From positions 1 through 51,856 of the forward strand of contig CANKWX010000021.1 in NCBI GenBank assembly GCA_947487165.1: DNA of 51,856 bases, in the 5' to 3' direction. Shown here piece by piece: positions 14,379-42,798 of this stretch (the stretch's first letter is position 1; every line of letters starts with the position of its first letter). The translations under genes were made by a program, and so were the position numbers. This stretch comes from Burkholderiales bacterium. GTDB lineage: Bacteria > Pseudomonadota > Gammaproteobacteria > Burkholderiales > Burkholderiaceae_E. The notes beneath the pieces were generated by a model. It was not told the origin of the DNA and ran no database searches. It saw only the letters and a program-made list of their open reading frames with translations.

Positions 14379-16784
14379 TCAGTCTTTGCCGATCATAGCC
14401 TGCGGCGCCACGATATTCCGGCTGGGTGCAGGCTCGAAGCTGATGACACCGTCGCGCAGCAGTTGCTGATAGCGCTCGAGACTCACCGAAGCGCGACTGC
14501 CAAGCACCTCCCAGCTGTGTTCACCCAGCAGCGGCGCCGGCCTTCGGGCACCGAGCCGCTTGCCGTCGCGCATGATCGACAAACCGGCCTGGCGCTGCGG
14601 ACCCGAGAAGGCTCGCTCCAGATCGATGAAGAAACCGGCCCTCTCGAAATGCTCGACATCGAAGAGGGTCTCTGCATGGACGATCGGTGCCGCTGCAATC
14701 CCTGCCGATTGCAGTGCAGCGGCAGCCTGTTGCGCGTCCTGCTGGCGGCTCCAGGCAGCAATCGCCGAATCGATCTCGTCTTCACGCGCCCGGCGCGCCG
14801 ACAGTTCACGCAACGAGGCGTCGTCGGCCCAGTCGGGGCGGCCGATCAGGCGTGCAAGGCCGGCAAATGAAGCGGCGTCGTCGATCGCCACCGCAAGCCA
14901 GCGATCGTTGCCAGCCGCAGGATAGATGCCATGCGGGGCCATCGCGGCATGGCGATTGCCCCGGCGCACGAGGCTTTGGGCGTCGAGCTGATGGGCGATT
15001 AATGACGGCGTCGTGAACTGGAGCATCGCTTCGACCATGCTCAGGTTCACATACTGGCCTTGACCGGTGCGGCGTCGGCTGATCAGGGCGGTGAGCGCCC
15101 CTGCGCAACCGAACAGACCGCCAACCGGATCCCCGAAGGCCAGGTGGGCCATGGTCGGTGGCGCATCAGCAAAGCCCATGAAGCTCGGCAGGCCGGCGCC
15201 CTGTTCGAGGGTCGAGCCATAGGCACGGGTGTCGGACCAGTCATTGCCGGTGCCGAAGGCCGACATCGAGAGCATCACAATGTCGGGGCGTGCAGCAGCA
15301 GCCTGCGCATAACCGAGGCCGAGCTTGTCCATCACGCCGGAGGCCTGGTTTTCGACGATCACATCGGCACCTGCGATCAGCGTCAGCGCCAGTTCGCGAC
15401 CGGTGTCAGTGGTCAGATCGATGCTCACGCCACGCTTGCCGCGGTTGAGCGCGCAAAAGCCCTTGGCGTTTTCATAGCCGCGCTCGCGGATGTACTCGGG
15501 CGTCCAGTTCACGCCGCGCCACCAGTCGGGATAACGCGCGGCCTCGATCTTGATGACCTCGGCGCCGAGATCGGCAAGCAGGCGACTGGCCAGCGGTCCG
15601 GCCCAGCCCATGGCGAAGTCGACCACCGTAAACCCGGCCAGCGGCGCGTCGTATTTGGCCGAGCCCGGCGCGGGGGCTGGCGCACCCGCGGCGAAGGACG
15701 CAGCCGGTTGAGACGGCCTCGGTGCGTCAAGGTCACGGCGAACCGGCGTGCCGGTCAGGCTGAAGGGGGTGCGCGGCACACGCAGGGTCTGCTCACCGAT
15801 GCGAACGGTGGCCAGCGACTCCCTGAACCTGAAGATCGGATGATCGAGGATGCCGGCCGCATCGGGCACCACCACGATCGGCACCTTGTGCTGGCGGCCA
15901 AGGGCAGCCCACTCCGATGCCGGGCGCGCGGCAAGCGCACGGATCAGTGCGGCCTCGACCTCGTCCTGTCGGGAAAACCGCAGTTCGCGGGTCACCAGAC
16001 CGACATCGGCGGCCTGCTCACGCAGATCGAGCGCCTTGCACAGCGAACGCCACTGATCAGGGGTTGTCACGGTGATGCCGACCCAGCCGGTCTTGCAGGG
16101 ATAGACGCCCACCGGCGAGTTGGGCGAGAAGCGATTCAGGCCGCAGCGCTGCATCGGGATGCCGTCGCGCTCAAAAAAATGCATGTGCATTTCGCTCAGC
16201 ACCATATAGGCCTCGAGGATGCTGATCTCGAAATGGCGCACGACACCGTTGGCCGGCGCCAGCATGGCCGCACAGGCCGCGATGTAAGCGGTGATGCCAC
16301 CGAAGACGCTGGCCTGGCGATCTCCGAAAAAGGTCGGCGGCCCCTCGGTGCGCCCGGCCATCTGAGGCATGCCGCTGAGCGCCTGGATCACCAGATCATT
16401 GCCCTTCCACTCGCGAAACGGACCATCGCCCCGACCGAACCAGCTCAGCGCGATGGTGGCGATTCGCGGACTGAAGAGCGCCGCGTCGAGTTCGCAGTCT
16501 TCACCGAGGACAAGGAGATCGGCTTGCGCACACAGTTTGGCGATCGCCTGGGAATCGGCACCGGTCTCGACCACCTGTTTGCCGGCGCGCAGCCAGTTGC
16601 CGTAAGCCGCTTCGGTGTGATCGTCATTGCGCACGATGCCCGCCATCGGATCGGATCCGCTTGGCACGACAACCGTCACCGCCGCACCGGCATCGACCAG
16701 AAGCCGGCCGCAATAGGCGCCCGCCGCGCCGCCACCGATCTCGATCACGCTCAAGCCCGACAAGGGCAACTGGCTTTGGGTCAT
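14379..16784 (-). CDS. Tandem CaiB/BaiF CoA-transferase fusion
   Basis: The 801-residue protein contains two CoA-transferase family III domains. The first (about 1-370) has LSGLSVIEIGGGAAGAYCGRLLVDAG. An Ala/Pro-rich linker follows (about 365-385). The second (about 385-790) has LAGFTVVDFAMGWAGPLASRLLADLGAEVIKIE and LNRGKRGVSIDLTTDTGREL. CoA-transferases of this class are interlocked dimers, so a fusion could form a pseudo-dimer from one chain. The loop of the usual catalytic Asp reads ISILEAYM in the first half and LSMVEAML in the second, with Glu instead. The neighbours are another CaiB gene and an APH-like kinase. Confidence 0.88.
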   Translation of the reverse strand: MTQSQLPLSGLSVIEIGGGAAGAYCGRLLVDAGAAVTVVVPSGSDPMAGIVRNDDHTEAAYGNWLRAGKQVVETGADSQAIAKLCAQADLLVLGEDCELDAALFSPRIATIALSWFGRGDGPFREWKGNDLVIQALSGMPQMAGRTEGPPTFFGDRQASVFGGITAYIAACAAMLAPANGVVRHFEISILEAYMVLSEMHMHFFERDGIPMQRCGLNRFSPNSPVGVYPCKTGWVGITVTTPDQWRSLCKALDLREQAADVGLVTRELRFSRQDEVEAALIRALAARPASEWAALGRQHKVPIVVVPDAAGILDHPIFRFRESLATVRIGEQTLRVPRTPFSLTGTPVRRDLDAPRPSQPAASFAAGAPAPAPGSAKYDAPLAGFTVVDFAMGWAGPLASRLLADLGAEVIKIEAARYPDWWRGVNWTPEYIRERGYENAKGFCALNRGKRGVSIDLTTDTGRELALTLIAGADVIVENQASGVMDKLGLGYAQAAAARPDIVMLSMSAFGTGNDWSDTRAYGSTLEQGAGLPSFMGFADAPPTMAHLAFGDPVGGLFGCAGALTALISRRRTGQGQYVNLSMVEAMLQFTTPSLIAHQLDAQSLVRRGNRHAAMAPHGIYPAAGNDRWLAVAIDDAASFAGLARLIGRPDWADDASLRELSARRAREDEIDSAIAAWSRQQDAQQAAAALQSAGIAAAPIVHAETLFDVEHFERAGFFIDLERAFSGPQRQAGLSIMRDGKRLGARRPAPLLGEHSWEVLGSRASVSLERYQQLLRDGVISFEPAPSRNIVAPQAMIGKD

Positions 16785-16791
16785 CGCGGCC

Positions 16792-17838
16792 TCAGACGGG
16801 AGTCTTCAGCCCGAGCAGGCGAGCGGCGCGCTCGACGCGTCTGGGAATCGACGCCTTGTAGGCCTCGAGGTCGATCGGTTCGTCCTGCGAACCCTGCTGC
16901 CCGCCCAGATAGCGCGCATAGACGCCCTCGCCGATGCTTGCGAGGCGCCACTGCGCAAAAGCACGGTAATAGTCGACCGAGGCCAGCGACACGCCCATCG
17001 AGTCGGCATACAAGCCGGCCATCTCGTCCTGAGTCAGGAAACCTGGCAGCCCGGTCGTCGCCGGATCGCCGCCCTGCCCCGGGTCTGACGGGTCGTACCA
17101 GTAACCCAGCAATCCGCCGAGATCGGCCATCGGCTCGCCAAGCGTGCATAACTCCCAGTCGAGCACACCGACAACCGGCCCCGACGGATCCATCATGCAA
17201 TTGGACAGGCGATAGTCGCCATGCGCGATGGTGGCCGCAGACGCAGCGGGCATGCGCGCCGCCAGCGCGTCGCGCACGGTATCGAAGAGCGGCAAATCGC
17301 GGGTGCGCGATTGCTCCCACTGGCCTGACCAGCGCTTGAGCTGACGCTCGACATAGCCTTCCCGCTTGGCGAGGTTACCCAAACCGATCGCATCGACATC
17401 GACCCGGTGCAGGGTGCACAGCGTCTCGATCAGCGAATGGCACATCCGCTGGCGCGCCTGCGGCGTCAAGGTGCGGCCGACCTCGATATCGCGGACCACG
17501 ACACCGTCGAGAAAGTGCATGACATAGAAGTCGCGCTCGTTGACCGCCGGGTCCTGACACAGACCGACCATGCGGGGCACTGGCACCGCTGTATCAGCGA
17601 GCGCAGACATCAGCCGATGTTCGCGCGCCATGTCGTGCGCGCTCGGCAGCAGTTTGCCCAGCGGCGGGCGACGCAGCACGAATCGACGGCCAGCCGCGTC
17701 GGTGACCGTGAAGGTCATGTTCGATCGGCCGCCGGCGATCAGCTTGAACGCGAGCGGCAGTGTCAGTGGCGTTCTCTCGGCCATCCAGGCGCTGACGCGG
17801 TCGATGTCGATGCCTTCGATCTTTCCTTGTTCGTTCAC
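16792..17838 (-). CDS. Aminoglycoside-phosphotransferase-like kinase
   Basis: The 348-residue protein belongs to the APH/ACAD10-type kinase family. It shows FKLIAGGRSNMTFTVTD and FVLRRPPLGKLLPSAHDMAREHRLM near the N terminus, the catalytic loop IAHGDYRLSNCMMD and the Mg motif VLDWELCTLGEPMADLGGLLGYW. These relatives of acyl-CoA metabolism genes are not antibiotic resistance enzymes; some phosphorylate hydroxyacyl-CoA. The GTG start at 17838 is chosen for the GGAGG six bases upstream. It is first of a minus-strand trio with the two CaiB genes (7-bp gap). Confidence 0.87.
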   Translation of the reverse strand: MNEQGKIEGIDIDRVSAWMAERTPLTLPLAFKLIAGGRSNMTFTVTDAAGRRFVLRRPPLGKLLPSAHDMAREHRLMSALADTAVPVPRMVGLCQDPAVNERDFYVMHFLDGVVVRDIEVGRTLTPQARQRMCHSLIETLCTLHRVDVDAIGLGNLAKREGYVERQLKRWSGQWEQSRTRDLPLFDTVRDALAARMPAASAATIAHGDYRLSNCMMDPSGPVVGVLDWELCTLGEPMADLGGLLGYWYDPSDPGQGGDPATTGLPGFLTQDEMAGLYADSMGVSLASVDYYRAFAQWRLASIGEGVYARYLGGQQGSQDEPIDLEAYKASIPRRVERAARLLGLKTPV

Positions 17839-18147
17839 TTCGGCCTCCCGTGCCGTCGCCAATACCTGACCCCCGCCCTGCATGGGGTCGAGATCGTGGC
17901 GGTCTCCTGTCGATCATGCGGCGCGCCTGCACATCCTTTTAAGCAAGCAGCAACGCCTCACGGTCGAGTCTACCCTCAGGCCGATGCCGAGCGTTCACGC
18001 GGGCAAGTAAGCCTTCACCCGCTTGGCGGCATTCCGGAACGAATCGCCGCCGACATCGGCAGGCAGGTGGCAGGCAGTTGGCAAGCATAAGGGCGGGCCC
18101 GGTAAGATCAGGGCACTACTCGATGACTGACCTGCGGAGACAAGCCC
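17839..18147. other. Divergent intergenic region
   Basis: This 309-bp gap separates the APH-like kinase from the DUF35 gene. I see no coding signal, tRNA or convincing promoter boxes. Its only visible structure is an 11-bp imperfect tandem repeat at 18058-18090. It must hold the promoters of both divergent operons. Confidence 0.5.
18058..18090. repeat. 11-bp imperfect tandem repeat, three copies
   Basis: Units are ggcaggcaggt, ggcaggcagtt and ggcaagcataa. The first two differ at one base, the third is diverged. It lies 57 bp upstream of the DUF35 start and may be a replication-slippage product in the promoter region. Confidence 0.6.
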
Positions 18148-30889: not shown

Positions 30890-32167
30890 TCAGTGCTTGT
30901 TCGGCCCCATGTAGCCGAACAGGAAGCCCGCCACCTTGCGCATCTGGATCTCCTCGGAGCCCTCGGTGATCCGATAGCGGCGATGGTGACGATAGATGTG
31001 TTCGAAGGGCTTATGGCGTGAATAGCCGATGCCGCCATGGACCTGCATCGCCCGATCGGCCGCCTCGCACACCAGACGATTGGCCCAGTAGTTGCACATC
31101 GAGACTTTGTCGGAAAGCTTTTTCTCGACCTCGGGATGCGGCATCTGGTCCATCTCCCAGGCGGTCTTGCGAATCAGCAGACGCAACATCTCGCATTGGG
31201 TGGCAAGCTCCACCAGCGGGAACTGGATGCCCTGGTTGCGGGCCAACTCCTCGCCGAAGGGCTTTCGCTCACGCGCATAACGCACGCTCTCGGCCACGCA
31301 AAACGACGCGGCGCCCAGCGAGCTCGCTGCCTGACGGATGCGGTTCTCGTGGACAAACGACTGGGCCAGAGGCAGGCCATGATCGATCGATCCGAACATC
31401 GCGTCGTCGGGCACCCACACATTGGTGAAGCTCACACGCGGATGGTCGGTCGGCATGTTGAAGGTCCAGAGATATTCCTCGACCTTCACACCCGGGGTGT
31501 CAGTGGGCACCAGAAAACAGGTGATACCGCGACCATCGCCGGCCTTGCCCGACGTGCGGGCAAAGGTGGCGCAATGCGAGGCGATATGCATGCCGGTGGT
31601 CCACATCTTTTCACCATCGATGCGCCAGCCCGAGACACCGTTGCGCACTTCTTGCACCGCGCGGGTTTCCATGTGGGTGGCGTCCGAGCCGTGATTGGGT
31701 TCGGTCAGGCCGAATGAAATTTTCATCTCGAAGGCCAGCGAGCCCTTGATGAATTTTTCCTTCTGGGCGGGCGTACCGAAGTCACGCAGCATCACGATGA
31801 CCGGAAAATTGCCGACCACCGAATGCTCATTCTGGAGGTCGTTGAACAGACCCAGCCCTTTGCTCGCCATATGCTCGCGAATCACCGCCATCCAGAGGTT
31901 TCCAACGCCCTGACCACCGAACTCTTTTGGCAGCGAGAGTCGAAAAAAGCCGGCCTTGTCGGCACGACGCTTGGCCTCAAGCAGCAGTTGCTCCCATTCG
32001 TGGCGAGGCAAGCCGCCTGCCTCGTAATCGGTTCGGGCGAACTCGCGGCGATGATCGAAAAAGCGCTCGTTATCGTCCTGAGCCTGAAGCGGCCTGATTT
32101 CGGCATCGATGAAGGCATCGAGTTTGCCCAGAAAGGCGACCAGCTCGGGCGGCAGATTGAAGTCCAT
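30890..32167 (-). CDS. Acyl-CoA dehydrogenase (LvaC/ACAD11-like)
   Basis: The 425-residue flavoprotein shows ACAD signatures: LSLPKEFGGQGVG, ISFGLTEPNHGSDATHMETRA (FAD and substrate region), GEKMWTTGMH, RKPFGEELARNQGIQFPL, AMQVHGGIGYSRHKPFEHIYRHHR and ITEGSEEIQ, with the usual catalytic-Glu segment. The size and HHRRYRITEGSEEIQ ending fit the ACAD10/11 group. It lies three bases behind the DUF6285 gene, which lies one base behind the APH-like kinase. The order kinase - small protein - ACAD equals lvaABC of the levulinate pathway. There the ACAD-like protein completes the 4-hydroxy to 3-hydroxy shift. Confidence 0.93.
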   Translation of the reverse strand: MDFNLPPELVAFLGKLDAFIDAEIRPLQAQDDNERFFDHRREFARTDYEAGGLPRHEWEQLLLEAKRRADKAGFFRLSLPKEFGGQGVGNLWMAVIREHMASKGLGLFNDLQNEHSVVGNFPVIVMLRDFGTPAQKEKFIKGSLAFEMKISFGLTEPNHGSDATHMETRAVQEVRNGVSGWRIDGEKMWTTGMHIASHCATFARTSGKAGDGRGITCFLVPTDTPGVKVEEYLWTFNMPTDHPRVSFTNVWVPDDAMFGSIDHGLPLAQSFVHENRIRQAASSLGAASFCVAESVRYARERKPFGEELARNQGIQFPLVELATQCEMLRLLIRKTAWEMDQMPHPEVEKKLSDKVSMCNYWANRLVCEAADRAMQVHGGIGYSRHKPFEHIYRHHRRYRITEGSEEIQMRKVAGFLFGYMGPNKH

Positions 32168-32170
32168 GAA

Positions 32171-32569
32171 CTACTCCTTGGTGTGTGGGGTGGCCGCGCG
32201 AACATCGAGCTCGCGCAGGTAGCTGGCGTAGTTGGGTTGATCGATCGACATCTTGGCCAAAGTGCAGGCCATCAGGTGGTCGATCAGACCCGGTGAATCG
32301 GTGGTGAGCGAGCCGCTGCGAATGCGCTCGCACAGCTCGCGCTCAAGCGCAGGCGCATCGCCCTGCTGACCGAGCAACTGCTGCAATCGCACGAGCGAGG
32401 CCGCTTCGAGCGCATCGCCGGCCTGCAGTTGGCGGCGCACCAGATCGATGGCGTTGGCGGCCACGCGCGCATGAAAGACTGCGTCCGGCGGCAGTTGCGG
32501 CACAAGCTGATCACGGATCATCGCCGCGACCACTTCCAGGATTTCGATGGGGGTCGGTGCATCGAGCAT
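32171..32569 (-). CDS. DUF6285 protein (LvaB-like position)
   Basis: The 132-residue protein matches the DUF6285 pattern: a helix starting PIEILEVVAAMIRDQLVPQLP, then AVFHARVAANAIDLVRRQLQAG and an Arg/Glu-rich C-terminal helix pair. It has no signal or membrane segment. Such proteins occur next to APH-like kinases and acyl-CoA dehydrogenases. In the lva operon a small protein in the same position is needed together with the kinase LvaA. Here it is wedged between the kinase and the ACAD with gaps of one and three bases, so co-translation and complex formation are likely. Identity with LvaB is inference from position and size. Confidence 0.8.
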   Translation of the reverse strand: MLDAPTPIEILEVVAAMIRDQLVPQLPPDAVFHARVAANAIDLVRRQLQAGDALEAASLVRLQQLLGQQGDAPALERELCERIRSGSLTTDSPGLIDHLMACTLAKMSIDQPNYASYLRELDVRAATPHTKE

Positions 32570-32570
32570 G

Positions 32571-33584
32571 TCAGGCGCTCCCGCTCAGCAGACGCATCAG
32601 GTCCATTTCGTTTTCAGACGCTCGCCGCACGATCATCGCGCGCTCGACCGTGCGGTTGCGACCACTGCGAAACCATTCGAGCATGCTGGCGCAGCTGACA
32701 CCCCAGCGCAGACTGCCCACCATCTCCCAGAAGCGAAAGCGCATCGGATCGACCGCTTGGCCACTGGCCTGTGCATAGGCCTGCAACAGCTCATCGCGAG
32801 TGCCCAGACCACCTGCCGGCAGATCAAGCTTGCCGAATCGCCATGGCGGCAGGCACAACCAGGCGAGGTCTTCGACCGGATCGCCCAGATGCGCGATCTC
32901 CCAGTCGAGCACCGCCCTCACGCCGTCGGTGCCGATGATCACGTTGCCGTGGCGATAGTCGCCGTGAACCAGATGCGGGCGCTCCGGCTCGGGCGGTGCA
33001 TGCTCATCTAGCCACCGGAAGGCCAGCTCGAAGACCGGCCTGGGATCGCTGAAGGACACGGCCCGCGCATGCAGATCCTCGATGGTCTTGCGAACCCCCG
33101 ACACCGGCAGCGCCGGCGGCAGGCGGTTTACATCGGCAGCATGCAGCGTCGCTGCAATGCCGGCGAGCTGCGCCACCAGCAGCGGCCTGATGGCATCGAA
33201 CTGTGCATCACGCAGGATCTTTCGCGGGATGGTTTCGCCGGGGATACGGATCATCAGAAAGCCGTCGCCCAGTGCGTCATCGGCGCCCAGAATATGGACC
33301 ACCTGTGCGACCGGGGCGCCAGCCTCATGCAGCGCGCGCACCAGCATCGCCTCGTCGGTCAGCGACAAGGTGCGCGCGGCGCGAACGCCACCGGGTGCTC
33401 GACGCAGGATCAGCGGCCAGCTGCTTGCTGCCCCCTGATCTGTCCCGATCGCATCGAAGGACCAGGTCTCAAGCGTGGCACCGGCAGACAAGCGCTTGAG
33501 CCCCTCGATGCGCTGCGCGCCGGGCAGGACACGCAACGCGACTGCCTGCAGTGCGCTGCGAAACGAATCGAAATCTCCAGTCAT
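32571..33584 (-). CDS. APH-family kinase (LvaA/ACAD10-type)
   Basis: The 337-residue kinase has LKRLSAGATLETWSFDAIG, LILRRAPGG, the catalytic loop LVHGDYRHGNVIIG and the metal motif VLDWEIAHLGDPVEDLAWLC. The family includes LvaA, which phosphorylates the 4-hydroxyl of 4-hydroxyvaleryl-CoA, and the kinase domain of mammalian ACAD10/11. With the following DUF6285 and ACAD genes it forms an lvaABC-like unit. There is no normal ribosome site before the ATG. Instead three tandem minicistrons end on the start codon, which suggests coupled or re-initiating translation. Confidence 0.9.
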   Translation of the reverse strand: MTGDFDSFRSALQAVALRVLPGAQRIEGLKRLSAGATLETWSFDAIGTDQGAASSWPLILRRAPGGVRAARTLSLTDEAMLVRALHEAGAPVAQVVHILGADDALGDGFLMIRIPGETIPRKILRDAQFDAIRPLLVAQLAGIAATLHAADVNRLPPALPVSGVRKTIEDLHARAVSFSDPRPVFELAFRWLDEHAPPEPERPHLVHGDYRHGNVIIGTDGVRAVLDWEIAHLGDPVEDLAWLCLPPWRFGKLDLPAGGLGTRDELLQAYAQASGQAVDPMRFRFWEMVGSLRWGVSCASMLEWFRSGRNRTVERAMIVRRASENEMDLMRLLSGSA

Positions 33585-33640: not shown

Positions 33641-34501
33641 CTACAGGCTGCGCTCCCACCAGGGATAGCCTGGCGGCATATCGGCGCTGACCTTTCCCGG
33701 GAAACTTGCCGCACGCTTGCCCAGAAACGCGGCCACCCCTTCGCGGACGTCAGGCCCGGCACCAAGCAGCCGGTTGTATTCGCTGTCGAGCTCGAGCAGG
33801 TCGAAGGGCGTCGTATCGCCGGTAAAGCGCCACAGCATCTGGCGGGTCAGGGCCACCGACACCGGAGCGGTGTGATCGACAATCTCGCGGGCAATCTCAT
33901 TGGCGCGGGCCAGTAACTGATCGGGCGCAACCGCCGCTTCAACCAACCCGCCCCTCACCGCTTCCAGTGCATCGAAGACCCGCCCCGAATAACACCATCG
34001 CAGGGCTTGAGGCAGTCCGACGATACGAGGTAAAAACCAGGCACTCGCGGCTTCGGGCACCAGCCCTCTGCGAGTAAAAACCGCGCCGAACTTGGCATCG
34101 GTCGAGGCTATCCGGACATCCATCGGCAGCGTCATCGTCAGCCCGACGCCAACTGCTGCGCCGTTGATGGCCGCAATCGACGGCTTGCGGCACTCGAAGA
34201 TCGAGCGAATGAAGTTATCGCCACGACGCTGCTGCCCGGGCTGGCGCTCGGCGAACATGTTGTCGACCTGGCCCTCACCGAAACTCTCGGCACCCGACGA
34301 GATATCGGCACCCGCACAGAACCCCCGCCCGGCACCGGTCACAATGACGACTCGCACGGCATCATCGGCATCGGCATGCCGAAACGCTTCAGTCAGTTCA
34401 CGGCCCATCCTCGCAGTGTAGGCATTGAGCTTGTCTGGCCGATTGAGCGTCAGGGTCATGACGCCGTCGTTGATGCCGACCGCAATGTCTTCGGTATTCA
34501 T
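33641..34501 (-). CDS. Enoyl-CoA hydratase family protein
   Basis: The 286-residue crotonase has MTLTLNRPDKLNAYTARMGREL, VIVTGAGRGFCAGADISS and AAINGAAVGVGLTMTLPMDVRIAS. It also has FTRRGLVPEAASAWFLPRIVG, with the second catalytic Glu (VPEAAS) but no Glu in GVGLTMTL. This is the common layout of single-glutamate crotonases such as isomerases. GGAGG lies eight bases before the ATG at 34501, which excludes the longer reading. It precedes the kinase gene by 56 bp, a gap filled by tandem repeats, and follows the FMO-like gene. Confidence 0.92.
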   Translation of the reverse strand: MNTEDIAVGINDGVMTLTLNRPDKLNAYTARMGRELTEAFRHADADDAVRVVIVTGAGRGFCAGADISSGAESFGEGQVDNMFAERQPGQQRRGDNFIRSIFECRKPSIAAINGAAVGVGLTMTLPMDVRIASTDAKFGAVFTRRGLVPEAASAWFLPRIVGLPQALRWCYSGRVFDALEAVRGGLVEAAVAPDQLLARANEIAREIVDHTAPVSVALTRQMLWRFTGDTTPFDLLELDSEYNRLLGAGPDVREGVAAFLGKRAASFPGKVSADMPPGYPWWERSL

Positions 34502-34698
34502 CGATGCATCCTCCAGGAGTTCACTCCAGCTCCCAGACATGGCCATCGAAGCGCTGGATCTTCATGCAGATGATGAGGCTGTATTGGATTGGGCTGGTGC
34601 TGATCAGACTGCCGATCGCTCCAGCGGCTGTCAACCGTCGACACTGATCCTCATTTCGCGGACCGCACAAATGCCGATCGTGCCGATCGAAAGCAAGC

Positions 34699-36525
34699 TC
34701 AGCGTGCAGCGGCTTCAGCCATCAGGCCCAGTTCAGTGGCCTGGATCTGAAGCGCCAGGTGGCGCGAATAGATGCGGCACTGGGCGAGGCTGCCGGCAAG
34801 AAACCACAGACCCGGCTGAGGCGTTTGCTGCCACATATTGCGCAGCTCCTGCGAGACCTCGTCGATGCCCCAGACCGGACCGATTCGGGCAGCGACATCA
34901 TCGCCCAGCAAACGGGCGGCCATCTCGCTCTGGCCGAGATAGCCTGTGGCGGTGACGATGAGATCGGCCTCACGCAGGCTGCCATCCGACAGCCGCAGGC
35001 CGCCTGGCTCAAAGCCCGCGATCTGATCGCTTTGCAGCACCTTGATCAGCCCCTTCACGATCAGATCGGAGCAGCCGACATTGAAGTAATAGCCGCCACC
35101 GCGCATCTGATACTTCAGCTGCCACCCGATGCCATCGGTGCCTTCGTCGATGCGAAATCCTGCTGCCTTCAGACCATCGATCAGGGAGCGATCGAGCTCG
35201 AGCGCAATCGGGTTGGCCAGCTGACTCGCGCGGCGCATCAGCGCCATTGGCGTGCCGACGCTGACCAGATCGCAATCGGCAAGGCTCGGGCCCTCCTCAT
35301 ACATCGCATAGGGCAGCTGCGCGGTCGGCTCGACATTCTGAACCATGGTCGGACTGCGCTGCACCAGGGTCACCTGTGCCCCATTGGCCTGCAGATCCTG
35401 AGCCACGTCGTGACCGCTGGTGCCAGTGCCGATGACCACTGCGTGCCGGCCGCGCCAGGCCTCGCCACTGCGGTATTGGCCGGAGTGCATCACGGTTCCG
35501 GCAAAGCGTTCGAGCCCCTCAATGACGGCCGGTATCGGCATCGCGCTCACGCCGGTGGCCATCACGAGATGCCCGACCCGCATGATCCGCTCAGTGCCAT
35601 CGGCTCGCCGGATTCTCACCTCCCACTGCCGGGCCAACTCGTCGCGGCTGGCACCCAGAAACTCAGTGCCGCTCCAGACATTGATCTCCATCGCCTGGGC
35701 GTAATACTCGAACCAGCCGGCCAGCATGTCCTTGGGAATGTAGTCGGGGAAGGTGTCGGGAAAAGGCAGATAGGGCAGATGGTTGAAGGCGCGTTTGTTG
35801 TGCAGCGTGAGCGAGTGATAACGATTGCGCCAGTTGTCGCCCACACGCTCATGGCGATCGACAACCAGCGTGTCGATGGACAACTGCCGCAGGCGTGCTG
35901 CAATCGACAGACCCGCCTGGCCGGCTCCGATCACGATGACGGTCGGATCGCGCTCGAGATAGGCCGCATCCTGCAGGCGGCGATCGAGCCAGTTGGGCTC
36001 CCTGAAATCGCGCGGATCAATTGCGCCCCTGGGCCGCCCGCGCCGATACTGCTCTTCATGGCCACGAATCGCATCAAGCGTGGTCATCAGCGTCCAGGCG
36101 CACCGCGGCGTGCCGGGGGCGTCATCATCTGCCCGCAGCCTGAGAACGCCCTCGCAGGGACCCACCGATGTCTCGAAGGCAAACAGCACCTCAAGCACCT
36201 GCTCGCCTGCCCGGCGAAGCTCACGCGGCGGTGTGCGATCGGCAAGCAGCCTGAAATCGCGCGGCGATTTCAAAGCGATCGACTCGGCACAGACCGACCC
36301 GAGCAATCGGCCCACAACCGCATCGCGGCCCGAGGTGGTCCGCACCGACCAGCTCAGCGCGAGCAGGTCGCGCCAGTGGCAATCAGGCTGAAAGAGCGCG
36401 GCCAGCGCGCCCGGATCGCGGTCTCGCAGCGCAGACTCGAAAGCGCGCAGCCAGGCGGCAGCCTCCTCGGCAAGCGCCGCAGGCCGGTCGTTCGATATCA
36501 CTGCTTTCACGGATGCACCGTCCAT
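34699..36525 (-). CDS. FMO-type flavin monooxygenase with N-terminal SnoaL-like domain
   Basis: The 608-residue protein has a SnoaL/NTF2-like N-terminal domain (about 20-160, starting with RAFESALRDRDPGALAALFQPDCHWRDLLALSW). A class B monooxygenase follows. The FAD motif is VIVIGAGQAG (197-205), then VGDNWRNRYHSLTLHNKRAFNHLPY. The FMO fingerprint FAGTVMHSGQY is at 341-351 and the NADPH motif GTGTSG at 366-371. The fingerprint fits N-hydroxylating or Baeyer-Villiger-like FMOs, so oxygenation of a ketone, amine or sulfide is possible. GAGGA precedes the start. The flavin reductase gene is just upstream (38 bp). Confidence 0.92.
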   Translation of the reverse strand: MDGASVKAVISNDRPAALAEEAAAWLRAFESALRDRDPGALAALFQPDCHWRDLLALSWSVRTTSGRDAVVGRLLGSVCAESIALKSPRDFRLLADRTPPRELRRAGEQVLEVLFAFETSVGPCEGVLRLRADDDAPGTPRCAWTLMTTLDAIRGHEEQYRRGRPRGAIDPRDFREPNWLDRRLQDAAYLERDPTVIVIGAGQAGLSIAARLRQLSIDTLVVDRHERVGDNWRNRYHSLTLHNKRAFNHLPYLPFPDTFPDYIPKDMLAGWFEYYAQAMEINVWSGTEFLGASRDELARQWEVRIRRADGTERIMRVGHLVMATGVSAMPIPAVIEGLERFAGTVMHSGQYRSGEAWRGRHAVVIGTGTSGHDVAQDLQANGAQVTLVQRSPTMVQNVEPTAQLPYAMYEEGPSLADCDLVSVGTPMALMRRASQLANPIALELDRSLIDGLKAAGFRIDEGTDGIGWQLKYQMRGGGYYFNVGCSDLIVKGLIKVLQSDQIAGFEPGGLRLSDGSLREADLIVTATGYLGQSEMAARLLGDDVAARIGPVWGIDEVSQELRNMWQQTPQPGLWFLAGSLAQCRIYSRHLALQIQATELGLMAEAAAR

Positions 36526-36563
36526 GACGAATCCTCAAGCGAGCGCTGTACTCGCTTCGCTCA

Positions 36564-37226
36564 TCAGCGATAGACGCCGTCCCAGGGACCTGGCACCACG
36601 GTCGCGCTGAGCTTGTCGGCACTTGCCATCGGGCGATTGAGCGTGAAGCTGGTCTCGGGCGTGATCACTGCATAGTCCATATAGCCCATGCGAGCGAGCG
36701 GTCGCATGCTGGCGGTATCGACCAGTCCGTCACGGATGAACTCATCCTTCACATGCACACCGACCACCGTGCCGAACACCACGATATAAGGCGTTCTGCC
36801 TGGCACCGAAGGCATCTCGACGATCTTCCAGAGCTTGCACTCAAAAGCTGCCGGACTTTCGGCCACCCAGGGTGCATTGACCAGCTTCGAAGCCGCAGGC
36901 GTGAGTCCTGCCAACTTGAATTCATCAACCTCGGCTGCAACCGGTGCCGACGACATGTTCATGTGATCGCGCAGATCCCAGTTCGACATTGAGCAGGTGA
37001 ACTCGCCGGTCGCCTCGATGTTGTCAAGCGAATCCTTGTGCCCGCCGGAGGCAAAGCACACCACCGGCGGCGTATCACTCATCGCATTGAAAAAGCTGTA
37101 GGGCGCGAGATTGGGAACGCCGCTCTTGCTGACCGAGGCGATCCAGCCGATCGGTCTCGGTACGATCAGTGCCTTGAAGGGGTTGAACTTCAGGCCGTGG
37201 TTGTCTTCTGCGGTGCTGTAGAACAT
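36564..37226 (-). CDS. Flavin reductase family protein
   Basis: The 220-residue protein has the FMN-binding split-barrel fold: FKALIVPRPIGWIASVSKSGVPNLAPYSFFNAMSDTPPVVCF, then FTCSMSNWDLRDHMNMSSAP. Members reduce FMN or FAD with NAD(P)H and can supply reduced flavin to two-component monooxygenases. The LLM protein at 23569-24798 is such a possible client; the FMO next door binds its own FAD and would not need it. It is 27 bp behind the sulfurtransferase gene. No clear ribosome site is seen. Confidence 0.88.
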   Translation of the reverse strand: MFYSTAEDNHGLKFNPFKALIVPRPIGWIASVSKSGVPNLAPYSFFNAMSDTPPVVCFASGGHKDSLDNIEATGEFTCSMSNWDLRDHMNMSSAPVAAEVDEFKLAGLTPAASKLVNAPWVAESPAAFECKLWKIVEMPSVPGRTPYIVVFGTVVGVHVKDEFIRDGLVDTASMRPLARMGYMDYAVITPETSFTLNRPMASADKLSATVVPGPWDGVYR

Positions 37227-37253
37227 GGGCTGTTGCGTCTCATGGAAGGGTTA

Positions 37254-38135
37254 TCAGGATGCGTCGCACTGCATCGGTCGCGTCGGGTCTGCCGACCATT
37301 CGAGCAAAGAGTTGTCGTAGACCGCCACGCGCGTGCGACCGATCAGCTGCAGGGCGAAGCAGGTCGCCGTTGCAGCGATGCCACCACCACAGTAAACGAT
37401 CACCGGATCGTCGGCCTCGCTCAGCCCGGCATCATGTGCCAGTTTCTCGAGTTCGGCACGCGAGCGCCAGCAACCGGTGGCCGGATCGATCAACGAGGAC
37501 GCCGGCAGGTTGAGGCTGCCCGGAATACGGCCAGGGCGACCGTAATGCGCGCCGCCGGTGCCGGCAAACTGGGCGGGAGACAGGGCATTGATCGTTGTCG
37601 CCGACCGATTTTCCAGCACTCGGGCCACATCATCCGCATCGGCGACACGATCGACATGGCGCTTGGGTCGAAAACTTCCGGAGCCGAAATGCGGCTCCTC
37701 GGTGCTGACCGGGCGGCCCTCCCGCTGCCAGGCCTCAAAACCGCCATCGAGGATCATCACGCCATTGTGGCCAAGGGTGCTGAGCACCCACCACGCTCGC
37801 GTGACCACCATCGGATGCCGTGCGCCATAGAGCACCACCCGATGGCCGTTGCCGATGCCCAGGCGCGACATCAGCGCAGCGATTCGGGTGTCCGATGGCA
37901 GGGTGTAGGGGAAGCGGCCGTGCGGATCGGACAGGTCGCTCACCATGTCGACATGCTGCGCACCGGGTATGTGGCCCTTGGCCCAGTCGGCGCGCCCGCT
38001 GTCGATGCGCGAGGGACCCACCGGCTGAGGCGTCATGTAGGTCGTGCAATCGAGGATCCGCACATCAGGATCATCGAGATGCGCTTGAAGCCAGGCGGTG
38101 CTGACCAGGTAGCCGGGTTGATGGTCGGTCGTCAT
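37254..38135 (-). CDS. Two-domain rhodanese sulfurtransferase
   Basis: The 293-residue protein has two rhodanese domains. The N-terminal one (about 9-140) contains LDCTTYMTPQPVG and KGHIPGAQHVDMVSDLSD. The C-terminal one (about 160-293) has GRPGRIPGSLNLPASSLIDP and the active-site loop VIVYCGGGIAATA with Cys249. This matches thiosulfate or 3-mercaptopyruvate sulfurtransferases. The ATG at 38135 has a weak ribosome site; a start at 38213 is possible and would begin next to the carbonic anhydrase repeats. The flavin reductase gene follows. Confidence 0.9.
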   Translation of the reverse strand: MTTDHQPGYLVSTAWLQAHLDDPDVRILDCTTYMTPQPVGPSRIDSGRADWAKGHIPGAQHVDMVSDLSDPHGRFPYTLPSDTRIAALMSRLGIGNGHRVVLYGARHPMVVTRAWWVLSTLGHNGVMILDGGFEAWQREGRPVSTEEPHFGSGSFRPKRHVDRVADADDVARVLENRSATTINALSPAQFAGTGGAHYGRPGRIPGSLNLPASSLIDPATGCWRSRAELEKLAHDAGLSEADDPVIVYCGGGIAATATCFALQLIGRTRVAVYDNSLLEWSADPTRPMQCDAS

Positions 38136-38213
38136 TTTCTGGTTCGCCGCGGTATCGATCTCAGTCTCCTTGGTGCAAGGGGGCGCAACGACCAGAAGGG
38201 TCGCTGCCATCAC

Positions 38214-38258
38214 TCATCCGACCTGAACTTGTCCGACCTGAACTCATCCGACCTGAAC
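38214..38258. repeat. 15-bp tandem repeat that repeats the stop of the carbonic anhydrase gene
   Basis: Three units of 15 bp (tcatccgacctgaac, ttgtccgacctgaac, tcatccgacctgaac) overlap the end of the carbonic anhydrase gene. On the minus strand each unit reads V-Q-V-G followed by TGA, CAA or TGA in the same frame, so the true stop is followed by an in-frame reserve stop 30 bases later. Confidence 0.85.
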
Positions 38259-38852
38259 AAAGCCGCCGTCGACCAGCGTGGTCAGCAACCCGCTGCGAAT
38301 ATCGAAACGAAAACCCTGCAGACGAAGCTGGCCGGCATCGACCGCCTCGCTGATCCAGGGGAAGGTGAGCAGGTTCTCAAGCGACAGCCTGACCACCGCC
38401 ATCTCGCAGGCGCACAGACGATCATCTCGACTGAGCTGCCTGGGCACGGCCTGCAAGGCTGGCGCGGCGATTCGCATCCAGGGCTCGACAAAGTCGCGGG
38501 CCACGCCGGGATTGCCTTCAACCATCGAGAGCACGCCGCCGCACTGCGCATGACCGAGCACCGCGATGCGAGCCACCTTCAGCACCCGAACCGCAAATTC
38601 GAGCGCAGCGCTGGTACCGTGATAACCGGAGTCGGGGGTATAGGGTGGCACCAGCCCGGCCACATTGCGCACCACGAAGAGTTCGCCGGGGATCGCGCCA
38701 AACACCGTCTGCGGATCGACACGCGAGTCGGAACAGGCGATGACCATCGTCTCCGGACTTTGACCGAACTTGGCGAGCGATTCGTAGCGATCGCGTTCCG
38801 CAGGCCATGTGACGGCCCGAAAACGCAGATGGCCTTCGATCAGTGGATCCAT
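38244..38852 (-). CDS. Beta-class carbonic anhydrase
   Basis: The 202-residue enzyme hydrates CO2 to bicarbonate. The zinc ligands Cys40, His101 and Cys104 and the Asp42-Arg44 dyad are visible in ACSDSRVDP and LGHAQCGGV. VVRNVAGLVPPY and GTSAALEFAVRVL are also typical. Length is normal. Its last residues VQVG and stop codon lie in the first unit of a 15-bp tandem repeat. It is the first gene of the long minus-strand run and may be read with the sulfurtransferase (108-bp gap). Confidence 0.94.
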   Translation of the reverse strand: MDPLIEGHLRFRAVTWPAERDRYESLAKFGQSPETMVIACSDSRVDPQTVFGAIPGELFVVRNVAGLVPPYTPDSGYHGTSAALEFAVRVLKVARIAVLGHAQCGGVLSMVEGNPGVARDFVEPWMRIAAPALQAVPRQLSRDDRLCACEMAVVRLSLENLLTFPWISEAVDAGQLRLQGFRFDIRSGLLTTLVDGGFVQVG

Positions 38853-38945
38853 GTGTCACCTCAGCGCTGACCGGGCCATTCTAGCCGGGACAGCGCACTG
38901 ATCGGGTGATTCAGCGCGAATCGACAGACTGACCGTCGGGCGACA

Positions 38946-39866
38946 TCACGGCGAATCGCGATTCGACCCGATCGGGTCGACGATGCTGATCACTGAATAA
39001 TCCAGATGATCGACGCCATCGGGCGTTCGGGTCAGCATCTCCCGATAACGGTAATTGAAACGGATCTCATCGGCCTTGTAGTGATGGCGTGCCATCAGGA
39101 CTTGCCCGGTCGTTTCATCGGTCCCACTGAGCGTGAGATTGATCATCGCCTGAGACAACGCCAGTGACTCGGTGGTTTCACCTGCCAGCGGACTCGACTC
39201 GTCGATGATGTGCATCAGGTTCCAGCCAAAAATGAAGATCGGATAGTCGCTTCGTACAAGTTTCAGGTCGTCGACCCGCCTGAGCATGAAGTCCTCACCG
39301 TCGCGCGTCTGTCTGACCAGCCGCAACTGCGCAGTCGTTTCCATGACGATGTTCTGCCGGCAATTGGCTGCACGAATCATCAGGATCTGCTTGCCATCGA
39401 CCGGAGTGACGACACTGACCTTGGCAAATCGAACCAGTGCCCTTGGACGCGAGAACCTCGCAAACATGATGCCGGTCATGACCGCCACGCTGACGACCCC
39501 GAAGAAGATCTCGATGCTGGAAATCACGTGACCATAGACAGAGCCCGGGTGCATATCGCCGTAGCCCACGGTCGCGATCGTCTCAACGCTGAAAAAAAAC
39601 GCGCCGATCAGGTTAGGGGGGTTGAGGTTGGCGACCGATCCGGGCACAGCGATGTACAGGAGTGCAAAGAACAGGTTCAACACAACAAACACCGAGGCCA
39701 TGAGGGCAATCAGCGCTGGCCAACTGATCATCATGCAGAAATGAAAAGTGTCCCGCCAGGGCTGCGCCTCGTGATCCGAGGTATCGACCCTGAAGGGCCC
39801 GATCGTAATGCGTCTGATCGAGGACTTGCCTTTCTGATGCATCGATGTCGGCGCTTTGTTCAACAT
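38946..39866 (-). CDS. KirBac-type inward-rectifier potassium channel
   Basis: The 306-residue inner-membrane protein has two transmembrane helices (about 46-74 and 112-137) around a pore loop with the selectivity filter TVGYGD (99-104). A C-terminal cytoplasmic Ig-like domain follows, with ILMIRAANCRQNIVMETTAQLRLVR and FGWNLMHIIDESSPLAG, as in prokaryotic Kir channels. It should form tetramers that pass K+. It is 24 bp downstream of the P450 on the same strand, though a functional link is not evident. The exact start is uncertain because no good ribosome site is visible. Confidence 0.92.
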   Translation of the reverse strand: MLNKAPTSMHQKGKSSIRRITIGPFRVDTSDHEAQPWRDTFHFCMMISWPALIALMASVFVVLNLFFALLYIAVPGSVANLNPPNLIGAFFFSVETIATVGYGDMHPGSVYGHVISSIEIFFGVVSVAVMTGIMFARFSRPRALVRFAKVSVVTPVDGKQILMIRAANCRQNIVMETTAQLRLVRQTRDGEDFMLRRVDDLKLVRSDYPIFIFGWNLMHIIDESSPLAGETTESLALSQAMINLTLSGTDETTGQVLMARHHYKADEIRFNYRYREMLTRTPDGVDHLDYSVISIVDPIGSNRDSP

Positions 39867-39890
39867 GACAAGGGACCGGAAACAGGCAAC

Positions 39891-41123
39891 TCAGGACACC
39901 GGCAAGCGGCGCAGTCCTCGCATGATCATCGCGTTGGTCCACTCGGGCGGATCCGAATCGATCAGGCCAAGCGACGGAAAACGCCGCATCAGCGTGCCGA
40001 CAGCAATGCGGCCTTCCAGGCGGGCAAGCGAGGCACCCATGCAGAAATGGATGCCCTGTCCAAACGTGAGATGCCGATTCGGCGTGCGTTCGATATCGAA
40101 GTGCTCGGCCCGCTCGAATTGCCCAGCGTCACGATTGGCCGCATTGACCATCGCAAAAACCCGCTGACCTGCCTCGAGGCGCTTGCCGCCGAGCTCGTGA
40201 TCGACAACGACGATCCGGGCGCTTGAATTGGTCGGACCATCGAAGCGCAGCACCTCCTCGATCGTCGAGCCGATCAGCTCGGGCCGGGCAATCAGTTTGG
40301 CCCGCTGCTCCGGATGCCGAATCAGGGTATGGACCGCGTTGCCGATCAGGTTGGTCGTGGTCTCATGACCGCCGAAGAGCATGAGCATGCAGGAGGCCAC
40401 CAGCTCATCTTCGCTGAGTGCGTCGTCGTCGTCGCGAGCCGCGATCAGCCGGCTGATCATGTCATCACAGGGCTGAACGCGCCTTTGTGCGATCAGCTCA
40501 CGAAAATAGGCCGACATGTTCTGTGCCCCGGATCGGGCCCGCTCGTATTTGTCGGCGACGCCCTGGGCGCTGCCGATAAACAGTTGCATGTCGTCGGACC
40601 AGGCTTTGAGACTGGGCAGCATCGCCTGCGGCGCACCGATCATGTCGAGAATGACCATTGCCGGCACCATCATCGCGAACGAGGCGATGACATCAGCCTG
40701 TCCGTTCGCAGCCAGTTCGTCATCGAACTGATCGGCCAATGACTCGACGATCTGACGAATGCGCGGCTCCAGGCCCTGAATCACCGGCATCGCAAAGCCG
40801 GCCCCCAGCAGCTTGCGAAGCCGCGAATGTTCGGGCGGGCTGCGAAATACCAGCCAAAGACTGAGATAGCGCACCACGTCGGCCAACACCGCCTGTTGTG
40901 TGGCGGGCAGCTTGTCGTAAAACGGCGTGATCCGATCTGAACCGAGCTCAGGCGCGACGTGTGCGCGACGAACATCGTCGTAACCGGTCAGCAGCCAGCC
41001 ACTGAGTGCGGGACTCCAGTGCACCGGATCTTCAAGGCGCAGACGTGCGAAGACCGGGTAGGGGTTGCTGCGAATCGCCGGGTCGCGCAGGTCGTAGCGC
41101 AGCAATTCGCCGCTGACAGTCAT
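39891..41123 (-). CDS. Cytochrome P450
   Basis: The 410-residue soluble P450 has I-helix GGHETT (251-256), the ExxR pair Glu290/Arg293 in IEEVLR, and the heme loop FGQGIHFCMG with ligand Cys361. It resembles bacterial CYP families that act on terpenes, steroids or fatty acids, but no subfamily can be assigned by eye. No ferredoxin or reductase is adjacent, so electrons come from elsewhere. The start at 41123 has AAGGAC six bases upstream; a much longer open reading frame upstream overlaps the divergent thiolase and is not used. Confidence 0.95.
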   Translation of the reverse strand: MTVSGELLRYDLRDPAIRSNPYPVFARLRLEDPVHWSPALSGWLLTGYDDVRRAHVAPELGSDRITPFYDKLPATQQAVLADVVRYLSLWLVFRSPPEHSRLRKLLGAGFAMPVIQGLEPRIRQIVESLADQFDDELAANGQADVIASFAMMVPAMVILDMIGAPQAMLPSLKAWSDDMQLFIGSAQGVADKYERARSGAQNMSAYFRELIAQRRVQPCDDMISRLIAARDDDDALSEDELVASCMLMLFGGHETTTNLIGNAVHTLIRHPEQRAKLIARPELIGSTIEEVLRFDGPTNSSARIVVVDHELGGKRLEAGQRVFAMVNAANRDAGQFERAEHFDIERTPNRHLTFGQGIHFCMGASLARLEGRIAVGTLMRRFPSLGLIDSDPPEWTNAMIMRGLRRLPVS

Positions 41124-41265
41124 CGATGGTCCTTGCTGAGTGCTCTGGGGGCGAGGGTAGTGACCGCAGCGACACTCGTCAAGGCGAGCCAAGCCGCTAC
41201 ACTGCGTGGTCATCACCATCACATTGACGGGCGCGTCTTGCGCGGGCCACGTCGCAGGAGACGCC

Positions 41266-42798
41266 ATGGACGAGAACACCACCCCGGTACTGGTTGGCTG
41301 CGGCCAGTTCACGCAGCGCGAGTCCGACCCGCTGGCCGCCTTGGGTCCACTCGATCTGATGGCGAAAGTCGCCGGCCTCGCGGCCGATGACGCCGGTCCG
41401 GGCAAGCGACTGATCGAGGCCCTCGATACGCTGGTCGTGGTCCGATTGTTTTCGGATACCAGCCCGCGCTTTGCGTCGCCCTTCGGCCGCTTCGCAAATC
41501 CGCCCAAATCGCTCGCCCATCGAATCGGCGCGAGCAAGGCGAGTCGTCTCGTCTATACCCAGCCCGGCGGCAACATGCCGCAGTGGTCAATCAACCAGCT
41601 GGCCCAGGCCATCACGCGGGGCGAGCTTTCGGCCGGCATGGTGGTGGGTGCCGAGGCATTGGCCACCCAGAAAGCCGCGCAGCGCGCCGGCATCACACTC
41701 GACTGGAATGAAGACCCGGGCGGCAGCTCAGAGTCCTGGGGAGTGGCAAAGAGCGGCTGGTCGGATGTCGAAGAGATTCATGGAGCGCGTGCTGCGATCT
41801 ACATGTATCCGTTCTTCGAAAATGCGATCAGAGCGCATACCGGACACAGCCTTGCCGAGCATCAGAACGCAATGGGCCATCTGCTGGCGCGCTTTGCCAA
41901 AGTGGCAGCAGGCAATCCGCTGGCCGATCGTCGCGACGGCTTTGACGGCGATCGCATTGCCCGACTCGCACCCGACAATCCCTACATCGCGTTTCCCTAT
42001 ACCCGCTTCATGAATGCGAACGCCTTCATCGATCAGGGTGCGGCAGTGATTGTCTGCAGCCTTGCCAAGGCTCGCAGTCTGGGCATCTCGAGCGACCGCT
42101 GGGTGTTTCTGCATGGCTGCGCCGATGCGCACGATCACTGGTATGTGACCGAGCGGCGCGATTTTCATTCCTCGCCGGCGATGAAGATGGTTTACGGCAA
42201 GGCGCTTGCCATGGCAGGCAAGTCGGTAGCCGATATCGGCATCTTCGATCTCTACAGCTGTTTTTCGTCGGCGGTCGAAATCGGCTGCCAGGAGCTCGGT
42301 CTGTCACCGGATGATTCGCGCGGCCTCACCGTCACTGGCGGCCTGCCGTTCTTTGGCGGCCCGGGTAACAACTATGTCACCCATTCGATTGCCGAGATGA
42401 TGCAACGGCTCAGGGCAGCACCCGGCCAATATGGCCTGGTCACTGCCAACGGCAACTATGTGACCAAGCATTCGGCAGGCGTCTACAGCACCGACATGCC
42501 AAAGACCGCCTTCATGCCGGAGGATCCGGCCATCTATCAGGCCGAACTCGACCGCCTCCCCAAACCGGCATTCAGCGCGCTGGCCAACGGCGGGGCGAGC
42601 GTCGAAACCTACACCGTCTTTCACGACAGGGACGGTCCGGCCGGTGGCATCGTGATCGGGCGCACCAGCGACGGCACGCGATTCATGGCCAATACCCCGA
42701 ACGACCCCGGATTGCTGGCAGACATCGAAAGCCGGGAATTCATCGGTGTTGCCGGCCAGGTCAGCAACGACGGGACGCGCAATGTCTTTGTGCCCTGA
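41266..42798 (+). CDS. Thiolase-like protein type 1 with extra C-terminal domain
   Basis: The 510-residue protein has a thiolase fold (TTPVLVGCGQFTQRESDPLAALGPLDLMAKVA at the N terminus, TRFMNANAFIDQGAAVIVCS in the middle). The extra C-terminal OB-like domain (about 420-510) is the sort found in thiolase-like protein type 1. Motifs differ from true thiolases: FDLYSCFSSAVE, then GGLPFFGGPGNNYVTHS, and the last Cys motif reads TANGNYVTKHSAG. It may cleave or condense acyl-CoAs by a different route or be a carrier. AGGAG lies six bases before the ATG at 41266. It is divergent from the P450. Confidence 0.87.
   Translation: MDENTTPVLVGCGQFTQRESDPLAALGPLDLMAKVAGLAADDAGPGKRLIEALDTLVVVRLFSDTSPRFASPFGRFANPPKSLAHRIGASKASRLVYTQPGGNMPQWSINQLAQAITRGELSAGMVVGAEALATQKAAQRAGITLDWNEDPGGSSESWGVAKSGWSDVEEIHGARAAIYMYPFFENAIRAHTGHSLAEHQNAMGHLLARFAKVAAGNPLADRRDGFDGDRIARLAPDNPYIAFPYTRFMNANAFIDQGAAVIVCSLAKARSLGISSDRWVFLHGCADAHDHWYVTERRDFHSSPAMKMVYGKALAMAGKSVADIGIFDLYSCFSSAVEIGCQELGLSPDDSRGLTVTGGLPFFGGPGNNYVTHSIAEMMQRLRAAPGQYGLVTANGNYVTKHSAGVYSTDMPKTAFMPEDPAIYQAELDRLPKPAFSALANGGASVETYTVFHDRDGPAGGIVIGRTSDGTRFMANTPNDPGLLADIESREFIGVAGQVSNDGTRNVFVP

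Follow-up and report, generated by a model that had tools for sequence, protein, structure and literature searches.

A kinase–DUF6285–acyl-CoA dehydrogenase operon that may represent a second class among LvaAB-type hydroxyacyl-CoA kinase systems

Introduction

Enzymes for the phosphorylation of hydroxyacyl-CoA have been assigned recently, to the Lva genes in bacteria and to ACAD10 and ACAD11 in mammals (papers of 2024 and 2025). In PMC6692424 and PMC11342911, LvaA together with LvaB is reported to phosphorylate hydroxyacyl-CoA. The mammalian proteins carry a kinase fused to an acyl-CoA dehydrogenase (ACAD), and in PMC12440821 modelling of ACAD11 has R626, H634 and R637 holding the phosphate, with D753 as the base; changing R626, H634 or R637 to Ala or Leu was the most disruptive to ACAD activity, while R637K and changes of H597 disrupted it partially and H597 was judged not critical. 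Here we analyse a stretch of 51,856 nucleotides from a Burkholderiales bacterium (contig CANKWX010000021.1 of assembly GCA_947487165.1, a draft genome of 3.78 Mb in which we number this contig C21), referred to as the window. Reading from 33584 to 30890 on its minus strand, a kinase, a 132-residue DUF6285 protein and an ACAD abut with gaps of 1 bp and 3 bp, in the order and spacing that an initial annotation of the sequence had given:

32571..33584, minus strand: APH-fold kinase, 337 aa, LvaA-like, of the putative second class seen in genomes with ACAD-w (Pfam APH PF01636, E 2.9e-30; HGDYRHGN and LDWE intact)
32171..32569, minus strand: DUF6285 (PF19802) protein, 132 aa, a LvaB-like kinase partner by Pfam family
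30890..32167, minus strand: ACAD of the 'ACAD-w' clade, 425 aa (PF02771, PF02770 and PF00441 above cut-off)
33641..34546, minus strand: gene of the enoyl-CoA hydratase/isomerase family, upstream of the kinase at a distance of 56 bp; probably also part of the operon

The trio is predicted to be a system related to the known hydroxy fatty acid phosphorylation set rather than that set itself, because its ACAD belongs to a different branch, the clade of window-type ACADs that we name ACAD-w. There seem to be two classes of LvaAB-like kinase–DUF6285 pair, and a different ACAD clade goes with each. This kind of system is known, and what appears to be new is its combination with a distinct ACAD clade: DUF6285 is found in no paper, and the ACAD-w clade or its module is described in no title or abstract, of the literature that was searched, most subscription papers lying outside its scope. 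If true, such a class with an ACAD of its own would extend the chemistry beyond 4-hydroxy acids, would assign DUF6285 a definite function as partner of the kinase, and would warn against labelling every kinase–DUF6285–ACAD set as levulinate catabolism. It also offers a testable contrast, with one kinase family, two ACAD clades and clear residue differences between them.

The kinase and the DUF6285 protein resemble those of an lva-type operon

The catalytic motifs HxDxxxxN and DWE are present in the window kinase as HGDYRHGN and LDWE. The small protein matches PF19802 over the full profile (positions 1–91 of 91) with 107 bits against a cut-off of 28.1 (E 6.5e-31), which bears out its initial assignment to DUF6285. 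For comparison with the lva operon of Pseudomonas putida we used L035, a complete lva-type operon on a plasmid of Stutzerimonas stutzeri, in which the genes run as PrpR-type regulator, APH kinase, DUF6285, histidine phosphatase, ACAD, SDR, acyl-CoA synthetase, DUF485 protein and symporter; the phosphatase excepted, this is the order of lvaR and lvaA to lvaG as listed in PMC6692424. The window kinase is 30% identical to that of L035 (E 2e-38), and the two DUF6285 proteins are 34% identical across 114 positions (pairwise comparison, E 3e-12), so that the same family occupies the LvaB slot there. By family and operon slot the window protein is thus LvaB-like at the level of sequence, as judged through L035 rather than KT2440 LvaB (PP_2792).

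The two operons are alike in having an APH kinase followed by DUF6285, with an ACAD close by, in the kinase motifs, and in a His at the position of ACAD11 H597. They are unlike in that the window ACAD is 29% identical to the LvaC-type ACAD of L035, has a Glu base, lacks the HCMR motif and the Arg upstream of it, and carries an N-terminal insert; moreover, the window kinase falls elsewhere in the kinase tree, and among the genes adjoining the trio there is none resembling lvaD, lvaE, lvaF/G or lvaR and no transporter gene, in line with the earlier remark that no lvaD-like gene abuts. The histidine phosphatase gene lies directly after DUF6285 in Lva-type sets of Thermus plasmids (L033 and L037) as well as of the Stutzerimonas plasmid; these sets share the kinase–DUF6285 core with the window, but differ from it in the added gene and in ACADs that have HCMR and Asp.

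The kinase and DUF6285 lie in one reading frame at 14 of 48 loci from other genomes, and such fusions occur in both classes. In a model of a fused relative, L056 (mean pLDDT 87, pTM 0.86), the DUF6285 part forms five helices after the kinase. A sequence search of solved structures with the DUF6285 protein gave no match, with E values as high as 1 admitted; NCBIfam yielded no model for DUF6285, and matches there to the kinase and the ACAD were below cut-off only.

The window ACAD belongs to a separate clade

The window protein has all three ACAD domains (N-terminal, middle and C-terminal) as well as the catalytic acid. On alignment, however, the ACAD11 positions R626, H634, R637 and D753 correspond to F271, Q279, S282 and E402, so that HCMR (which includes H634 and R637) is replaced by Q279-A280-A281-S282; R631 and H597 are kept, as R276 and H242. 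A broad profile gave 192 ACAD-like reading frames, of which the 186 of at least 330 aa were retained: 117 window-type, 35 with HCMR and 34 others, ordinary or distantly LvaC-like. F271, R276, Q279, A280, A281 and E402 are invariant in all 117 window-type rows, a count in which some rows are near-identical or were fetched twice, some loci overlap, and the window ACAD itself appears twice (in the window and as L001). Equivalents of R626, R631 and D753 occur in 35 of 35 HCMR ACADs, a class defined by that motif, for which its other residues alone are informative. His at position 242, near the FAD in ACAD11, is found in 117/117 ACAD-w proteins, 34/35 HCMR ACADs and 3/34 of the others, all three LvaC-related; Thr stands there in 15 of these 34, a group that includes misaligned sequences. 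ACAD-w is marked by an RIRQA motif and Glu402 at the base position, with HCMR missing, and by an N-terminal insert of about 20 residues in which those of FDHRRExARTD are invariant or nearly so.

In a tree of 74 ACADs, none of them mammalian, ACAD-w forms a single long-branched clade (support 100/100), and the HCMR ACADs fall in another clade, which does not include it. A model of the window ACAD (pLDDT 85, pTM 0.85) has residues 264–300 as one long helix carrying the motif positions 271–282. The best PDB sequence matches are 4n5f, 4u83 and CarC (6fah). With these ordinary ACADs the window protein shares the fold, the position of the catalytic Glu and the conserved Arg276, but it differs from them in His242 (where many have Thr), in Gln279 at the H634 position, in its N-terminal insert and in its regular association with the kinase. 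With ACAD10 and ACAD11 it shares the kinase partnership and the R631 and H597 equivalents, and differs in the absence of R626, H634, R637 and D753; for the mammalian proteins the available sections mention no LvaB/DUF6285 part.

The residues and the tree rule out LvaC identity for the window ACAD. The initial annotation had read the trio as an lvaABC-like module that isomerises gamma-hydroxy acids; the small protein and the kinase are indeed related to the lva set, and the ACAD lies in a separate clade. Since the ACAD has neither the residues nor the clade of LvaC, isomerisation of a 4-hydroxyacyl-CoA through the published mechanism cannot be assumed for this operon. Altered motifs were also seen among LvaC-related ACADs (L192, L194, L195, L167, L196 and L197), namely HGMH or HGAR with Asp, and a group with MAAW at the place of HCMR; these are perhaps further substrate classes.

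The kinases appear to divide with the class of ACAD

We then compared 56 DUF6285-associated kinases in a tree, labelling as ACAD-w any kinase linked to an ACAD-w gene or from a genome that has one, the window included. A single change divides 38 ACAD-w-labelled kinases from 17 labelled LvaC-type, L032 being unlabelled; the branch has modest support (90/63) and is present in 92% of 200 bootstrap trees, with a core of 36 at 92/89. The split holds for kinases unlinked to ACAD-w as well, which leads us to suggest two kinase–DUF6285 classes with different ACAD partners. This tree omits four kinases of the window's own genome and L152, a kinase from an ACAD-w genome that sat on a long branch and was unplaced in an earlier quick tree. 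The quick tree took in distant own-genome kinases, of which L182 and L183 gave no match. A second APH kinase of the window (16792–17883, minus strand, 363 aa) groups with own-genome kinases L178 and L180, not with the DUF6285-associated ones; it adjoins two CoA-transferase family III genes (13171–14352 and 14379–16784).

ACAD-w occurs with DUF6285 and its kinase

In a phylum-wide sample of 397 genomes (our own and 396 others), Pfam DUF6285 was found in 46 and ACAD-w in 35. All 34 non-own ACAD-w genomes have DUF6285, 33 by Pfam and one, G320, by a fusion profile, its kinase–DUF6285 fusion beside ACAD-w having been missed by the Pfam search; the overall frequency is 46/396 (Fisher 2e-39, this and the later Fisher values being descriptive only, as genomes are not independent). 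In 11 of the 34, ACAD-w and kinase–DUF6285 are unlinked, on different contigs or more than about 6 kb apart. Conversely, an HCMR ACAD is present in each of the 12 genomes that have DUF6285 but lack ACAD-w, beside the kinase in 10 and elsewhere in 2. Caulobacter vibrioides, an alphaproteobacterium, has both DUF6285 and ACAD-w (L101).

An APH-type kinase adjoins or is fused to DUF6285 at 48 of 48 non-own places. Within about 6 kb on each side of these, where the contig allows, the ACAD is ACAD-w in 22, LvaC-type in an operon-like position and the same direction in 10, and neither in 16. A 3.5-kb neighbourhood of 80 named ACAD-w loci contains a kinase–DUF6285 fusion in 25, separate genes for the two in 27, a kinase without a recognised DUF6285 in 4, DUF6285 only in 1 and none of these in 23 (2 of them at contig ends). 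The arrangement of the trio is therefore not a matter of chance: the kinase attends DUF6285 at every one of the 48 places, and the pair, separate or fused, is near ACAD-w in 52/80 loci.

At shorter range, among 74 genomes of the window's own family (own included; ACAD-w fragments of at least 250 bits accepted), 19 have both ACAD-w and DUF6285, 2 have ACAD-w only, 1 has DUF6285 only and 52 have neither (Fisher 2e-14). The two with ACAD-w only are drafts of about 270 and 770 contigs. Ten of these genomes belong to genus g12, and of them 6 have both and 4 lack both.

A proposed second class of kinase system, and other explanations

We tentatively favour the view, to which we give a little short of an even chance, that the operon encodes an LvaAB-type hydroxyacyl-CoA kinase system of a second class, in which ACAD-w acts on the phosphorylated product. 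By analogy with LvaAB, the kinase, held by its DUF6285 partner, would move the phosphate of ATP onto the hydroxyl of a CoA-bound hydroxy acid. ACAD-w would then act on the product of the kinase, with Glu402 as base and FAD drawing electrons from C2/C3 as the phosphate leaves, and the resulting enoyl-CoA could pass into beta-oxidation through the neighbouring hydratase. We infer that the substrate is a CoA ester and that the ACAD takes the phosphorylated intermediate using a different pocket. Three ACADs with HCMR and Asp are already encoded in the genome (L166, L168 and L170, on contigs C122, C31 and C25, none on the window contig), and for this reason the position of the hydroxyl probably differs from that handled by LvaC. 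Given these and the genome's seven APH kinases, two of them in the window, the known type of 4-hydroxyacyl route may well be there already, and the window operon would then do something else. A wider proposal, which we hold to be less likely than not, is an unrecognised second solution to hydroxyl removal from acyl-CoA, made up of an LvaAB-type kinase and an ACAD that evolved separately from LvaC and ACAD10/11 and uses a Glu base and a different, non-HCMR pocket. The hydroxyl would probably have a different position or belong to a branched chain, and single cells of alpha- and betaproteobacteria would have two phospho-acyl-CoA routes side by side.

The most serious competitor, with an appreciable but minority share of our confidence, leaves phosphoacyl-CoA formation to kinase–DUF6285 and makes ACAD-w a conventional FAD dehydrogenase that introduces a 2,3 double bond at another step and passes electrons to electron-transfer flavoprotein (ETF), the phosphate being eliminated by an HCMR ACAD encoded elsewhere. 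Several of our results weigh on this side and against the reading that we favour. With F271, Q279 and S282 in place of R626, H634 and R637, ACAD-w has no known phosphate-binding site, and its Glu base is that of ordinary ETF-linked dehydrogenases. Besides the three HCMR ACADs of the own genome, an HCMR-type match is found in 34/34 other ACAD-w genomes against 132/362 of the remainder (Fisher 2e-14), the motif being confirmed in 29 of 30 loci taken one from each of 30 ACAD-w genomes, and such an enzyme could remove the phosphate in trans. Both ACAD classes share one cluster at 8 of the 48 loci (L119, L124, L126, L127, L129, L130, L132 and L133), all in genus g139, the HCMR ACAD being encoded on the opposite strand, no further than about 4 kb from the kinase of a kinase–DUF6285–ACAD-w set. 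Other points count against the favoured reading without bearing on this competitor: the support for the kinase split is modest, the quick tree puts L138, a kinase from an ACAD-w genome, outside the group in an unsettled position, 21 of the 80 named ACAD-w loci have no kinase in 3.5 kb despite at least 1.5 kb of upstream sequence, and the LvaB comparison was made through L035. HCMR-type ACADs are, however, common anyway (166 of the 396 other genomes), and we prefer to have ACAD-w take the phosphorylated product because LvaC-type (10) and ACAD-w (22) enzymes stand beside the same kinase–DUF6285 core as if they were alternatives, even though neither is near in 16 places, because the kinases follow the ACAD class even where unlinked, and because His242 is common to ACAD-w and the LvaC class.

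Two other accounts appear improbable. An ordinary lvaABC module working on 4-hydroxyacyl-CoA, as in P. putida and ACAD10/11, would explain the order kinase–DUF6285–ACAD and the relatedness of the first two proteins to those of L035, yet it is already contradicted at the residue level, all four equivalents of R626, H634, R637 and D753 being missing, and the 100/100 clade of ACAD-w stands outside the HCMR ACADs. The three genes might instead be mere neighbours in a catabolic region, with a kinase substrate other than acyl-CoA and a co-occurrence that stems from a common lifestyle and descent; APH kinases accept a wide range of substrates, ACAD-rich genomes may have more of everything, and the unlinked state of kinase–DUF6285 and ACAD-w in 11/34 genomes fits with this. 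We consider it just as unlikely, given the joint presence or absence of the genes within genus g12 and the fusions that join the kinase to an LvaB-like domain.

Genes around the trio

The operon probably extends beyond the three genes, since 56 bp separate the kinase from the upstream hydratase gene, which recurs there in some relatives: in the regions of 4 out of 8 relatives, a counterpart with 67–95% identity stands ahead of the kinase. Among 107 kinase places, a redundant set that counts the window, 25 have a hydratase match directly upstream, mostly at about 30% identity, with 60 and 66% in L045 and L039; in Sulfitobacter a 55% match comes after the ACAD. Beyond the hydratase, the adjoining genes upstream are for an FMO, a flavin reductase and a sulfurtransferase, and a pseudouridine synthase gene lies downstream.

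The FMO belongs to a row on the minus strand (34699–41537) that also contains the flavin reductase, a 3-mercaptopyruvate sulfurtransferase-like gene, a carbonic anhydrase, an inward-rectifier-type channel and a P450. It had been suggested that the FMO, P450 or LLM enzymes nearby supply lactones as substrate. Of the 8 relatives' regions, only that of the nearest, L228, retains the FMO–P450 run, the channel apart (P450, carbonic anhydrase, sulfurtransferase, flavin reductase and FMO, with the LLM genes); the FMO has a 25% match in L231, and the P450 one of 27% in L235, while L229 is uninformative here, as its contig stops at the hydratase gene. The substrate link is accordingly weak, and we set the run aside as a substrate source; no tie between the module and lactones was found.

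By ACAD similarity the nearest named relatives are metagenome bins labelled Burkholderiales or Betaproteobacteria. A 3.3-kb contig, L038, from a metagenome bin titled Bordetella parapertussis carries an ACAD 99% identical to that of the window; this label looks doubtful, the next matches being other metagenome bins.

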